36,643 nt of DNA. Source: Thermoproteota archaeon (GTDB taxonomy: Archaea > Thermoproteota > Thermoprotei_A > Sulfolobales > Acidilobaceae). The notes beneath the pieces are model-generated. The model worked only from the letters and a program-made list of their open reading frames with translations, was not told the DNA's origin and made no database searches. Location of the stretch: assembly GCA_030549835.1 (NCBI GenBank), contig JAUQQR010000013.1:1-36643 (forward strand). Reading direction: 5' to 3'. The stretch's first letter is position 1, and every line of letters begins with the position of its first letter. Positions 1,468-16,641 of the stretch are shown piece after piece. The translations under genes were made by a program, and so were the position numbers.

Positions 1468-1684
1468 GAGTTCAGCTCTTATATAGGTTCATCGCCTCAT
1501 CCCTTGTTTTTCCGCATTGGTCTCGGGCTTGCATCACCCTCTGAGGGCGTTCAGGGCGACCCCAGGCACTCCACATCTTGAGTATTTATAGAGAGCTACC
1601 TGTAGGTAGCTCTCAGCATTAAGTATAGGTAAATATGGTTTATAAGCTTTAATGATATAAACTAATATAAACAGCTATAAAACT
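1468..1684 (+). repeat. Structured repeat element, copy B
   Basis: Best preserved copy of the element, lying in the divergent gap between rpl24e and rps28e. The core (about 1519-1583) matches inverted copy C at 6917-6977 almost base for base: CATCACCCTCT, GCGTTCAGGG, GACCCC, GGCACT and CACATCTT are shared. It ends in a perfect inverted repeat, GAGAGCTACC (1591-1600) and GGTAGCTCTC (1605-1614), around a TGTA loop. Copy A keeps this hairpin with a different loop. GC-rich paired segments in an AT-rich genome suggest an RNA. Its two ends overlap TATA-like sequences: CTATATAAG facing rpl24e and CTATAAAA facing rps28e. The remaining gap (1685-1747) holds TTTAATATTTAG, a closer TATA candidate for rps28e. 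Confidence 0.75.
1479..1487 (-). promoter_or_regulatory. TATA box for rpl24e-ndk
   Basis: CTATATAAG on the minus strand, 45 bases before the rpl24e ATG. This predicts a start site near 1457 and a leader of about 20 bases that includes the GGGGAG ribosome-binding site. It lies inside the left part of repeat copy B; copy A has CTATACCAG at the equivalent place. Inferred from sequence only. Confidence 0.5.
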
Positions 1685-1747
1685 CAAAACAGCTACATTA
1701 CACTTAATAGGTTTAATATTTAGACTTATCATTTAGGGTTTAGAGAG

Positions 1748-1987
1748 TTGAGTTCTAGTAGTGAGTCTAGTATTATAGAGGAGATAGGATACCCAGCCGA
1801 AGTAATACAGATAATAGGTAGAACCGGAGTTACAGGAGAGGTAACTCAGGTTAGAGTTAGGATACTGGAAGGTAAGGATAAGGGTAGAATACTAACAAGG
1901 AATGTTCTTGGAGCTGTAAGAATAGGAGATATAATAATATTAAGAGAAACAGAGAGAGAAGCTAGGAAGCTAACTGGAAAGAGGTAA
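1748..1987 (+). CDS. rps28e: Ribosomal protein S28e
   Basis: Small-subunit ribosomal protein with an OB-like fold, found only in archaea and eukaryotes. The 79-residue product has the diagnostic [28 protein letters not shown] and the acidic-to-basic C-terminus around LRETEREAR, full length for the family. It starts with TTG at 1748; no better start exists, and TTTAATATTTAG about 30 bases upstream fits a leaderless transcript. nfeD begins 4 bp after its stop with a GAGGT ribosome-binding site inside the S28e end, so the two form an operon. Odd points: L7Ae, normally its neighbour in archaea, is not here, and rpl24e is divergent rather than downstream. Confidence 0.95.
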
Positions 1988-1991
1988 AATA

Positions 1992-2375
1992 ATGGATAAA
2001 ATAACAGTATTAATAGGGCTAATTGATGAACTACTAATAGCATTAGCATTAGTTGGAGTACTATCAGTAATAGCATATCATTTAAACATAATTGGGTTAG
2101 GGGAAGCCATAGTATTAACAATAATATTAGCGGCTATATTAGCATTTATAGCATATAAGGTACTAGAGGTGCATAGGCAAAAAGTTAGGGTAGGAATAGA
2201 AGCGTATATAGGGAAGAAAGCTAAGGTAGTAGAGGTGCGTGGAAGTAAAATACTGATAATGGTTGAAGGAGAGCTTTGGCAGGCAGAGAGTGAAGATAAG
2301 CTAGAACAGGGAGAAACAGTTATAATCGTCGGCTTTATAAATGGGAAGTTTAAAGTAAAATTGCTAAAAGCATAA
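1992..2375 (+). CDS. nfeD: NfeD-like membrane protein
   Basis: 127 residues: a short N-terminus, two hydrophobic helices (about 11-31 and 37-59), then a soluble C-terminal domain (about 65-125) with the NfeD OB-fold pattern YIGKKAKVVE ... KILIMVEGELWQAES ... GETVIIVGFINGKFKVKLL. NfeD proteins are membrane partners of stomatin-like proteins and membrane serine proteases and are thought to act in membrane quality control. This is the short form without the ClpP-like protease domain. No stomatin gene is in the window. ATG at 1992 has GAGGT about 8 bases upstream, inside rps28e, so translation is probably coupled. The family assignment is good; the exact role is unknown. Confidence 0.82.
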   Translation: MDKITVLIGLIDELLIALALVGVLSVIAYHLNIIGLGEAIVLTIILAAILAFIAYKVLEVHRQKVRVGIEAYIGKKAKVVEVRGSKILIMVEGELWQAESEDKLEQGETVIIVGFINGKFKVKLLKA

Positions 2376-2882
2376 CTAGCTATCTTCTCTTAAGAACTCA
2401 ACTACTACATCTCTTATTTTAACCTGCTCAGCTAGCTGTAGGGCCTTCTCTAAGCTTCCTTTTGCTATATCATCTACTCTATAACCTAGCTTAATGTACT
2501 GGTTTGCTTTGATATATGTTGCTATACTATCTCCAATTCTTGCTATTATACTCTCTAATGTTCTACCCTCTCTATACTCTAAGTATAGGTTTTTTAGTTC
2601 TGGCTCTATATTTAGCATATCATATGCTCTCATTTCAGCCTCCTCTTTAGCCATATCTATCCCAGCCTTCCTACTAATATCACCTATAATAGCCTCTGCT
2701 AGGTCGTGAACAATAGCTATAGCTAGTGTTTTTTCAGGATTCGCGTTGAGTCCTCTCTTCTTGGCTTTTATAGCAATCTCATATGATACTAGTGCTGATG
2801 CAAAGAGGTGCTCGGCTACAGTCTCTGATATAATATGTGGTACACCTCTAAGCATCCACCCTGTTCTTGCTAAGCTACTCAA
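2376..2882 (-). CDS. HD-domain phosphohydrolase, YfbR/HDDC2 type
   Basis: HD-superfamily metal-dependent phosphohydrolase resembling 5'-deoxynucleotidases of the YfbR/HDDC2 group, which remove phosphate from deoxynucleoside monophosphates. Seen: RTGWMLRGV near the start, SETVAEHLF with the first metal His, the IVHDLAEAIIGD block with the HD doublet, and RIGDSIATYIKA with a later conserved Asp. The first usable standard start is TTG at 2882 (168 residues), but the frame stays open upstream and encodes LDIRDIIVALSSLARTGW, the helix homologs normally have before RTGW. The only start-like codon there is CTG at 2909, after GGTG. The true protein is therefore probably 9 residues longer. Substrate is not determined by the sequence. 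It follows the JAMM-motif gene on the same strand. Confidence 0.82.
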   Translation of the reverse strand: MSSLARTGWMLRGVPHIISETVAEHLFASALVSYEIAIKAKKRGLNANPEKTLAIAIVHDLAEAIIGDISRKAGIDMAKEEAEMRAYDMLNIEPELKNLYLEYREGRTLESIIARIGDSIATYIKANQYIKLGYRVDDIAKGSLEKALQLAEQVKIRDVVVEFLREDS

Positions 2883-2956
2883 AGCTACTATAATATCCCT
2901 AATATCCAGGGCTAGACACCATTTAACAGCTAATACTCTAAGCTTATAGGTAAATC

Positions 2957-3682
2957 TTAATAGTTAACTACATCAAGAATTATACTCTTAAGCTTTAATG
3001 GCTTACTTATCTCGCCATAATTTAATAGCTTAATATAGTCTTCAACATCCATAAAGCCGACCCTGGCCATGTAGAAGTAGCATGACTTGGTAGCTATAGC
3101 CTCAAAGAATGAGAGATCAGCTAGAGAGTAGACAGAGCTCTCAACATCACTCTTCGAGAAGCCGCATCCGCCATCAGGGTGTGTATGGATTTTCCCTACA
3201 GCATTAACACTAGGTATAACTACTCGAAATCTCTCACCTTCAAAAACATATAGTGAACCTTGTAGACTATATATGATAATGTACTCTATGCCTGAGATAG
3301 AAGTCTTATATGCAAGTGATCTGAGAAGAGTAGAGTCGAATATTAATGGTACTAGCGGAATTCTCTCATATAGATTCTTAAGCTTAATGCTAGAGTTAGG
3401 CAACCTCTTATTCTCGATAACTATATCTAGATTTAAATCTTCAATTCTAGTCTTAGACTCTGAGATCCAGCTAGCTCCATCTACGTAAACTCTTAGTAAT
3501 CCTTCCACTACCGCTTTCCCCACAATATCATAATCTAATATATTAGGGTATACTCTAATAAACCCTGTATCTAAATCTTCAGCATCAAGCTCTATAAGCT
3601 TAATAATAGAGGATGCTATAGATAAGAGTGTTGAAGCCTGAGTTATAGCTGAGGTCTGCCACTTCCTCAAGATCACCACCAC
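2957..3682 (-). CDS. JAMM/MPN-motif metalloprotease-like protein
   Basis: 241 residues. The C-terminal half contains G-K-I-H-T-H-P (His166, His168) followed by six residues and S-x-x-D (Ser176, Asp179), which is the JAMM zinc motif HxHPx6SxxD of the MPN/JAB superfamily. The upstream catalytic Glu could be Glu133 in GIEYIII. JAMM proteins include deubiquitinase-like isopeptidases that act on small archaeal modifiers. The N-terminal 120 residues match nothing I recognise and are longer than in simple archaeal JAMM proteins. The start is GTG at 3682; a TTG a few codons downstream is also possible. No SAMP/Urm1-like or E1-like gene is nearby, so a role in protein modification is only an inference. 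Confidence 0.7.
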   Translation of the reverse strand: MVVILRKWQTSAITQASTLLSIASSIIKLIELDAEDLDTGFIRVYPNILDYDIVGKAVVEGLLRVYVDGASWISESKTRIEDLNLDIVIENKRLPNSSIKLKNLYERIPLVPLIFDSTLLRSLAYKTSISGIEYIIIYSLQGSLYVFEGERFRVVIPSVNAVGKIHTHPDGGCGFSKSDVESSVYSLADLSFFEAIATKSCYFYMARVGFMDVEDYIKLLNYGEISKPLKLKSIILDVVNY

Positions 3683-3779
3683 ACAATTACACTATTCCCA
3701 ATACTACTACACTATATATCCTATCCTCTATGAAAGTTTTATAAGTTATCATACACAGTTAACAATCCGGTGTTTTAGT

Positions 3780-14680: not shown

Positions 14681-14745
14681 GAAACACTTCTTCCCAGCAA
14701 CCTACTCAAATACCAAGATTAAGGAGAAAGTGAGTAGTTTAGTAG

Positions 14746-14818
14746 TAGCCGGGCGGGGATTCGAACCCCGGTCACGGGGGCCAAAGCCCCGCATCCTTGG
14801 CCGCTAGACGACCCGGCT
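14746..14818 (-). tRNA. tRNA-Gln (TTG), CCA not encoded
   Basis: The minus strand gives a full cloverleaf: acceptor AGCCGGG/CCCGGCT, D-arm with G-U pairs, anticodon stem CGGGG/CCCCG around loop CTTTGGC with anticodon TTG, T-arm GGGGTTCGAATCCCC, and discriminator A. The three bases after it are CTA, so CCA must be added by CCA-adding enzyme, unlike the initiator tRNA in this window. No intron. It is convergent with dtdA. Confidence 0.95.
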
Positions 14819-14930
14819 ACCCCTAAATCTACTATAACTTTAAAGGTTATAAAGCTAGTTACATTAAGATTCATATCTGTTTTTAGTTAAGATACTGGAG
14901 GCTGTTTTCTTCTCGATGATTGAATGAGTC

Positions 14931-14938
14931 TTTATATG
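14931..14938 (+). promoter_or_regulatory. TATA box of the structured RNA
   Basis: TTTATATG on the plus strand, about 25 bases before the first base of the terminal helix of the structured RNA at 14958. This is the normal archaeal TATA-to-start spacing and sets the RNA's strand and 5' end. Confidence 0.55.
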
Positions 14939-14957
14939 CTATGATTTATGATTCTAT

Positions 14958-15154
14958 CCTAGGACGAGCTCTATGAGCCTGGCGAGAGGGGTCTGAGTAA
15001 GCCCTACTTTGCCGTAGGGAGCTGGGGGTGAGCCGCCGGGTAACCGCTGGAGATGCGCTCCTGTAAACAGAGCTGAGGGAGAAAAAGCCGTTGAGAGGTG
15101 GATAGCTGGGAGGAAATCCTATGAGCAGCCGTTCGCCGAGAAACGGTACCTAGG
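14958..15154 (+). ncRNA. GC-rich structured RNA of unknown class
   Basis: A sharply bounded GC-rich segment in AT-rich surroundings, with stops in all frames. The ends pair (CCTAGG 14958-14963 with CCTAGG 15149-15154). A second long-range helix is GGCGA (from about 14981) with TCGCC (about 15132-15136). Internal hairpins: CCCTAC/GTAGGG (15002-15018), CGG/CCG closed by a GTAA tetraloop (about 15037-15046), GCT..CTG/CAG..AGC around TAAA (about 15057-15073), and GCTG/CAGC with AGG/CCT inside (about 15105-15129). A TATA box lies 25 bases upstream. I could not align it with 5S rRNA, SRP RNA or canonical RNase P RNA. The rest of the gap (14819-14930, 15155-15327) is AT-rich, with TATATAAT near 15273 before the next gene. 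Confidence 0.65.
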
Positions 15155-15327
15155 TTATACTTGATAATGTCTTACATGATTTAAATCTAAGATTAATAAA
15201 GCGGATCATATTGAAGAGGCACTTATGATAGTTAAATCAGAATTTTAAGGCTACGAGAGTATTAGGATTCTCTATATAATGTTTTATTTTTACTTCTAAC
15301 TACTCCTTATTATGGTGTCTTTTAGAG

Positions 15328-16641
15328 TTGGTTAATTTCCTTTTTAGGGTTATTGAGATCTTCGAGTCTTGGGCTAATGGTAAGGATCTTAGCGAGATTG
15401 AGATCTTTGAGGCTAGCAGTTTACTTGGTGGTCCAACTAGGAAGCTTGAAGTATTTCTATCTAGGTATAGAAGTGTTATTGGCGATATTATAGAGGAGAG
15501 GTGTAGCGATACAGGCCAGGGTAGGATGTGTATATATTCTTGGAGTAGGAGGGCTTTTAAGAGATATTTCCCTGTTGCTATAGATAGTGGAGGTACTATA
15601 ATATGGTTTAGGACTGATGGCTCTCTAAGCTTAGTAGCTTACCCTCTCCATAGGGCCTTAGATTTAGGAGTTAGAGGTGTTGAGATTCCAGGAGAGCCTC
15701 CAAGTATTGTGACACCTAGAATTGATGGGTGGCAGGTTAACTTATACTGGGATCCAGTACTGAGTAAGTGGATGTTTGCCACTAGGTATGTACTACATAA
15801 CATGGTCTTCGTTAGAGGGGAGCTAAAAATTGAGGATTATGGCCTAACTATTAATCCAGTAGTCTTAGTAGCTGAGAGTATAGCTTCTAAAATAAACCTC
15901 TATAGTAGGCTAGAAGGATTGAGTGGCTGGACATTCACACTAATGATTGAGGGTAGTGAGGGAGCTTCAGTTATCAAGGGGCCCCCACCATTAGATAATA
16001 TAGAGTCTTATAGGTTAGTACTCATAGCTGCGAGGAAGCCTGATGGAGAGCTCTTAGATCCTATAAGTTCTACTAATATTGCTAAAATAATAGGAGTCGA
16101 TTGTATAGCTGATAGAATTATCCAGTTAAGAGCTGATATAATAGACTATGCTAAGTTTAATATAAGTCACCCATCACTATTCCTCTGGTACCTAGGTAGG
16201 GGGGATAAAGAGCATCCAGAAATATTTGAAGTTAAATCAGATGTTTATAATGATTACATAAATGCTACTAAGAGCTTAGATGGTAAGTCATATATATTAC
16301 TATTAACTCTTAGCCACCAAGAAATAATAAGTAAACTTAGAGAAAGACTCGGAGACAAGATAATAGATGAAACATTAAGTGTAGTTAGTGATCTAAGAGA
16401 AGTACTAAGCTTAACTCTAGAAGATAAGGAGAAGAGAGATATTCTAAGAAGAATACTGAGAATGAAGAGGTTTAAAGAAGACGCGTTAACTTCAATCTCT
16501 AAAGCCTTAGAAGAAGGTAAAGTTGATAGAGCATTAAGGATAATAGCATTAACTGTATCTGAAGGTTGGAGAGTTGATGATATCCCATTAGTATTTGAGA
16601 ATCTCGTTAGAGATATAAAGGATTACATTATGAGGACTTAG
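15328..16641 (+). CDS. T4 Rnl1-like RNA ligase fold with degenerate active site
   Basis: 437 residues. Several blocks line up in order with T4 RNA ligase 1: AYPLHRALDLG (about 104-114) with the segment before motif I; TPRIDGWQVNLYW (129-141) with motif I KxDG, but the nucleotidyl-acceptor Lys is Arg131; KWMFATRY (147-154); WTFTLMIEG (201-209) with motif III, Glu208 kept; YRLVLIAARKPDGE (228-241) with the IIIa region; and EVKSDVYNDYINATKSLD (301-318) with motif V KIKSDWYVSLHSTKSSLD, first Lys changed to Glu301 and second kept as Lys303. The motif IV EG pair is not seen. By these changes it should not form the ligase-AMP intermediate. The frame is long and intact, so it is probably selected for another role such as RNA binding. 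Start TTG 15328. The alignment is by eye. Confidence 0.6.
   Translation: MVNFLFRVIEIFESWANGKDLSEIEIFEASSLLGGPTRKLEVFLSRYRSVIGDIIEERCSDTGQGRMCIYSWSRRAFKRYFPVAIDSGGTIIWFRTDGSLSLVAYPLHRALDLGVRGVEIPGEPPSIVTPRIDGWQVNLYWDPVLSKWMFATRYVLHNMVFVRGELKIEDYGLTINPVVLVAESIASKINLYSRLEGLSGWTFTLMIEGSEGASVIKGPPPLDNIESYRLVLIAARKPDGELLDPISSTNIAKIIGVDCIADRIIQLRADIIDYAKFNISHPSLFLWYLGRGDKEHPEIFEVKSDVYNDYINATKSLDGKSYILLLTLSHQEIISKLRERLGDKIIDETLSVVSDLREVLSLTLEDKEKRDILRRILRMKRFKEDALTSISKALEEGKVDRALRIIALTVSEGWRVDDIPLVFENLVRDIKDYIMRT

Follow-up and report, generated by a model that had tools for sequence, protein, structure and literature searches.

The window analysed here is the full length of one contig (G000:C31, 36.6 kb) from an archaeal genome bin of 1.42 Mb and 96% completeness. 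Between a tRNA-Gln gene (14745-14818, minus strand) on one side and an open reading frame (ORF) at 15328 on the other lies a structured RNA with its own promoter. A preliminary description, made from the letters of the window, had proposed an unclassified RNA here; that it is carried by a mobile element of TnpB type was beyond the reach of that description. The locus comprises the following features:

14896..14901, plus strand: TGGAGG at the opposite junction, G-rich, the predicted target-adjacent motif side (counts over 35 elements; inference)
14900..15147, plus strand: RNA-only mini-element of 248 bp (same termini in 35 elements; empty sites of homologous elements)
14931..14938, plus strand: TATA box of the RNA, TTTATATG (from the sequence; matches the TTATAAG that most relatives have some 25-30 nt ahead of the RNA)
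14956..15147, plus strand: structured RNA, candidate guide-RNA scaffold (match of 144.9 bits to the R1 covariance model, whose training set includes this copy; covariation)
15007..15072, plus strand: central stem, arms about 15007-15022 and 15057-15072 (consensus structure; corresponds to the Rfam Sso133 region in Sulfolobales)
15033..15050, plus strand: apical hairpin with a GNRA tetraloop (GTAA, 15040-15043; GNRA in 12/12 aligned copies)
15087..15147, plus strand: 3' terminal hairpin, GCCGTT-GAGA-GGTGGATAGCTG ... CAGCCGTTCGCC-GAGA-AACGGT (alignment, covariation)
15110..15124, plus strand: kink-turn-like motif, GA (15110-15111) opposite TAT-GA (15120-15124) (pattern counts against shuffles; read off this copy's sequence)
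15148..15167, plus strand: flanking DNA right after the RNA end, a predicted guide segment given read-through (35 unrelated flanks; biology of TnpB right-end element RNA, reRNA)

The segment 14956-15147 encodes an RNA that is structured, with covarying helices and a GNRA tetraloop, and that has a TATA box. The folding energy of this single copy is only mildly unusual (z -1.87). In the alignment of 12 copies (A3) the covariation score is 0.378, compared with 0.202 after shuffling and at most 0.139 in slid controls, while 40 further copies (A7) contain 208 double-change cells against 85 in shuffled alignments and score 0.404 against 0.189, the A7 alignment having been made by the covariance model and hence being biased toward its structure. 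RNAalifold and pair counting back the structure both in the 12-copy training set and in the 40 other copies, with sliding and shuffling controls far under the observed values. Several helix positions are nearly invariably G-U (38/40 and 39/40 copies), which points to RNA. The structured RNA of the preliminary description is borne out, and so are its promoter, since TTTATATG lies 20-25 nt ahead of the conserved start of the RNA, and its GNRA-type loop, which is GUAA, GCGA or GCAA across the aligned copies. Its "closed ends" (CCTAGG at 14958-14963 with CCTAGG at 15150-15155) did not stand: the pairing is not conserved and its right half lies in flanking DNA beyond the element, so that we regard it as a chance match. 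The proposed extent, 14958-15154, did capture a structured RNA; the best boundaries are instead about 14956-15147 for the RNA and 14900-15147 for the element.

BLASTN retrieved one more copy from the window genome and another from a different family of the order, and a search with a short conserved core yielded some 14, spread over seven or eight genomes, all of the same design as far as GAGAAACGG(T) and different afterwards. Two BLASTN matches (L004, L005) and five pattern matches (L024, L025, L028, L035, L036) were rejected as chance, the RNA's 3' hairpin being absent from them. R1, the covariance model built on 12 copies, detects the RNA in 58/294 related archaeal genomes from 34 genera, where it is multicopy. 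An Rfam search of the window copy gave no match to any family, so the claim that it is classifiable neither as RNase P RNA nor as signal recognition particle (SRP) RNA holds for this copy. Whether it represents a new RNA class, as also suggested, has a divided answer: the window copy belongs to no Rfam family, Sso133 (RF02814, Sulfolobus sRNA133) included, but Rfam already lists relatives of it from Sulfolobales as this orphan small RNA (sRNA). In Metallosphaera loci Sso133 matches within the RNA at 72.7-93.6 bits, over its gathering score of 44 bits, and its match falls within the R1 match in L144, L148 and L154. The Rfam entry spans 73 nt, which in the Sulfolobales members that pass its cut-off is their central stem, and its record states no function. 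As far as the literature was searched, the link of Sso133 to a TnpB-like gene and an element end is new, and this orphan family would find its explanation in a divergent TnpB guide RNA.

A kink-turn arrangement, in which two stems are separated by a bulge of 3 nt and then tandem G-A pairs, is present in about half of the copies. Distant copies carry stem-NNU-GA-stem opposite GA in 12/25 cases (shuffled 0.05), as in GCCGT-GAT-GA-ACC...GGT-GA-ACGGC, and in 24/52 close copies (shuffled 1.3) the motif is mirrored and sits close to the tip of the 3' hairpin, a few of the latter matches relying on non-consensus pairing. The inner stem of the window copy's motif is short. Archaeal L7Ae recognises kink-turn motifs (PMC5539422), and binding of L7Ae to the RNA is a reasonable prediction from these motifs.

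The left terminus of the mini-element, GGCTGTTTTC, is the counterpart of the end just past the tnpB stop in complete elements, and the right terminus, GAGAAACGG(T), is the end of the RNA itself. On the left flank of 35 elements G occupies position -1 in 35/35, -2 in 32/35 and -3 in 26/35, and on the right the flank starts straight after the RNA, where the copies have no similarity to one another; a fixed RNA end followed by unrelated flank is the arrangement expected if the flank were the guide. Genome G197 holds a contiguous, 96%-identical version of a mini-element locus of G130 and thus the empty site. Comparison of the empty ...AACAAGGGTAGTT... with the occupied ...AACAAGG-CTGCTTCG...GAGAAACG-GTAGTT reveals a precise insertion with the RNA 3' end at the junction, and a second, more diverged empty site of lower identity agrees. 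GG is found at both junctions in nearly all elements, and empty sites in relatives read GGG where a strict GG crossover predicts GG. G-rich motifs have been reported for bacterial IS607 TnpBs (PMC11061315), which the G-rich left flank fits, or it may reflect transposase site choice. The amidase gene split by an element at L042 (about 1600-3700, G166:C22) was rejected as a clean empty site, given that the expected gene seems to lack about 45 bp at the junction, as if insertion or cleavage had removed target DNA.

Complete elements encode a nuclease, a RuvC protein of about 350 aa with a predicted TnpB/Cas12f fold. In G166 (L042/L113) the RNA adjoins an intact 362-aa ORF inside the interrupted amidase gene. 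The AlphaFold2 model of the nuclease (predicted local distance difference test, pLDDT, 86.5; predicted template modelling score, pTM, 0.78) retrieves Cas12f (E 4.6e-9), Cas12k and ISDra2 TnpB (1.5e-4) with Foldseek, and the RuvC catalytic residues D208, E272 and D339 are invariant across 29/29 aligned members. Relatives of the nuclease occur in Desulfurococcales, Metallosphaera, Vulcanisaeta, Thermococcus, Bathy-, Nezha-, Geo- and Baldrarchaeota; none was found in IMG/VR or in phage and plasmid collections.

The RNA co-localises with this gene in a recurrent arrangement. In 51 tnpB loci (283 kb), 35/37 R1 matches run opposite to tnpB, almost always just upstream of its start, and among the 41 loci with enough upstream sequence 31 have a match upstream and divergent. 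The RNA lies 190-300 nt upstream of tnpB and is directed away from it. Sso133, an independent Rfam model, served as a check on this position: in a genome scan all 19 of the 19 matches having a TnpB within 1.2 kb were divergent from it, with most gaps at 287-295 nt. Known TnpB guide RNAs derive from the tnpB 3' end and the element right end, on the same strand (PMC8612924, PMC11061315, PMC10711439). Strict membership in the TnpB reRNAs therefore fails, as the RNA is upstream and divergent rather than downstream on the tnpB strand. At the tnpB 3' end synonymous conservation is not raised in three clades, hence no sign of an overlapping canonical reRNA there, which counts in favour of the divergent RNA as the guide. 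Three loci with nuclease members from Thermococcus and Zestosphaera (L135, L137, L133) have no R1 match upstream of tnpB; a diverged RNA or a different arrangement would account for this. In the window genome's family, one contig (G017:C1) contains eight Sso133-like matches under the cut-off, two of which are divergent from TnpB relatives of 386-420 aa, and these two pairs suggest that one more TnpB subgroup is accompanied by the divergent RNA.

Why should a transposon keep a separately promoted RNA at the end opposite to the one where TnpB guide RNAs are known? We consider it likely that the RNA works like a TnpB guide RNA, as the guide of a divergent TnpB lineage that is encoded at the opposite element end. 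An archaeal family of TnpB-like RuvC nucleases would use it as an analogue of reRNA/omega-RNA, transcribed divergently from tnpB by a TATA promoter of its own that lies at the element's other end. The transcript would fold into a scaffold, the central stem with its GNRA hairpin followed by the 3' hairpin ending exactly at the element boundary, and transcription through that boundary would append the next ~16-20 nt of flanking DNA as the guide. The nuclease could then cut the empty site, where the flank follows a G-rich motif, and so promote renewed copying of the element, and L7Ae may assist assembly of the particle via the kink-turns. A more elaborate scenario, in which an archaeal TnpB lineage without a zinc ribbon has uncoupled its guide RNA from the mRNA through its own opposite-end promoter, assembles it with L7Ae and lets a nuclease encoded elsewhere sustain RNA-only mini-elements in trans, is tentative and, as a whole, rather less probable than not.

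Several observations weigh against the proposal of a guide RNA. The 362-aa ORF has no match in Pfam and failed the NCBIfam guided_TnpB model (NF040570), with 34.2 bits (E 1.6e-8) at a cut-off of 100, and the nuclease alignment has no CxxC pair of a zinc ribbon between RuvC-II and RuvC-III. Ten of the 41 testable tnpB loci are without an R1 match, and an intact tnpB of this type is missing from the window genome. Apart from its GG, the candidate target-adjacent motif is weak, and it may stem from transposase site choice. The test of synonymous conservation at the tnpB 3' end lacked a positive control. Binding by TnpB and guided cleavage are themselves predictions.

It is conceivable that the RNA is a regulator of the element instead, an antisense or trans-acting repressor of tnpB or of transposition. 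Its transcription opposite to tnpB would suit such a role, and work on Sulfolobus in 2005 reportedly described small RNAs transcribed opposite to transposase genes. However, the RNA does not overlap tnpB but lies upstream and points away from it, it is kept together with its promoter in elements that have lost tnpB, and its 3' end is tied to the element boundary, a constraint for which a repressor would have no use. We therefore regard a regulator as unlikely. Less likely still is that the sequence is a mere DNA structure at a transposon end, for recombinase binding or as a hairpin end, that is accidentally transcribed. IS200/IS605 ends carry DNA hairpins and the location at the element end is apt, but the near-constant G-U pairs help an RNA and not a DNA cruciform, and the TATA box of its own, the GNRA loop, the kink-turns and the Rfam listing of the Sulfolobales members as sRNA all speak against it.

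The kink-turns (UGAUGA opposite GA) in part of the family could also recall a C/D- or H/ACA-type modification guide RNA riding on the element by chance. With no gathering-level match to any snoRNA family and a strict linkage to a TnpB-like nuclease, this seems improbable to us, slightly more so than a DNA structure. As for a strongly diverged RNase P RNA, which the preliminary description had entertained, or an SRP RNA, size and GC content are all that would favour it. The genome encodes canonical versions of both elsewhere, RNase P RNA (RF00373, 178.7 bits) on G000:C16 and SRP RNA (RF01857, 154.2 bits) on G000:C7, and the RNA at hand is multicopy, mobile and without an Rfam match, so that this explanation is refuted.

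The RNA is real, widespread and undescribed in the literature searched, and on the best reading its system is a divergent, opposite-end variant of TnpB-reRNA. It resembles the IS200/IS605 and IS607 TnpB-reRNA/omega-RNA systems (ISDra2, ISXfa1, ISFba1) in having a RuvC nuclease of the Cas12f/TnpB fold in a small element, and in a structured RNA, 150-200 nt long, that reaches the element boundary with its 3' end, making the flank a would-be guide. The GG at both junctions in nearly all elements and the absence of a visible target duplication recall IS607, though the GGG of relatives' empty sites departs from a strict GG crossover; the adjacent side is likewise G-rich, which may be a transposase preference. 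In those systems the RNA is downstream of tnpB on the same strand (PMC8612924, PMC11061315, PMC10711439), whereas here it is upstream, on the opposite strand, at the other end and under its own promoter. The zinc ribbon of known TnpBs is absent from this nuclease, and IS607 carries a serine recombinase in the element, whereas no serine recombinase TnpA was found inside these tnpB elements, and near few loci. RAGATH-18, the reRNA scaffold of bacterial IS607 TnpB, lies downstream of tnpB, and it has no match in the window or in three relatives even at relaxed cut-offs. Cas12f is the best structural match of the nuclease at about 12% identity, but here the guide would come from flanking DNA. Literature searches, which did not extend to subscription papers and preprints, turned up no account of a divergent TnpB guide RNA; the TnpB guide RNAs that they did turn up all originate on the 3' side of tnpB, in many cases in its own mRNA. 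If our reading is true, there would be a second way to build TnpB systems, with a separately promoted divergent RNA, and by one step nearer to CRISPR with its separate guide genes. The clade moreover offers compact (~350 aa) nucleases from hyperthermophiles.

Many copies of the RNA reside in mini-elements of 250-320 bp that consist of terminus, promoter, RNA and other terminus and have lost tnpB; such RNA-only elements are a natural test of exploiting a nuclease in trans. The window genome has six RNA copies, several of them decayed, along with two C-terminal relics of tnpB and one intact IS607 TnpA. Since tnpB survives there as relics only, the window copy has probably been orphaned, and none but a TnpB acting in trans could use it. 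The sole intact TnpA (L052, 4821-5483, minus strand, G000:C58; 225 bits to the IS607 family) is divergent from an adjoining, partly deleted RNA copy and is a candidate mobiliser in trans. We rejected C58 as an IS607 element with an internal tnpA, because its left terminus lies between the RNA and tnpA, making tnpA a neighbour. On L113 two RNA copies in opposite orientation (1918-2125 and 2607-2815) occur within 700 bp, one with tnpB and one without, and on a Desulfurococcales contig a 5S rRNA gene (L145, 622-741) directly adjoins a tnpB/RNA element. In the window itself, the ORF downstream of the RNA (15328-16641) encodes 437 aa without a convincing Pfam family, FliG_M matching weakly and under the cut-off.
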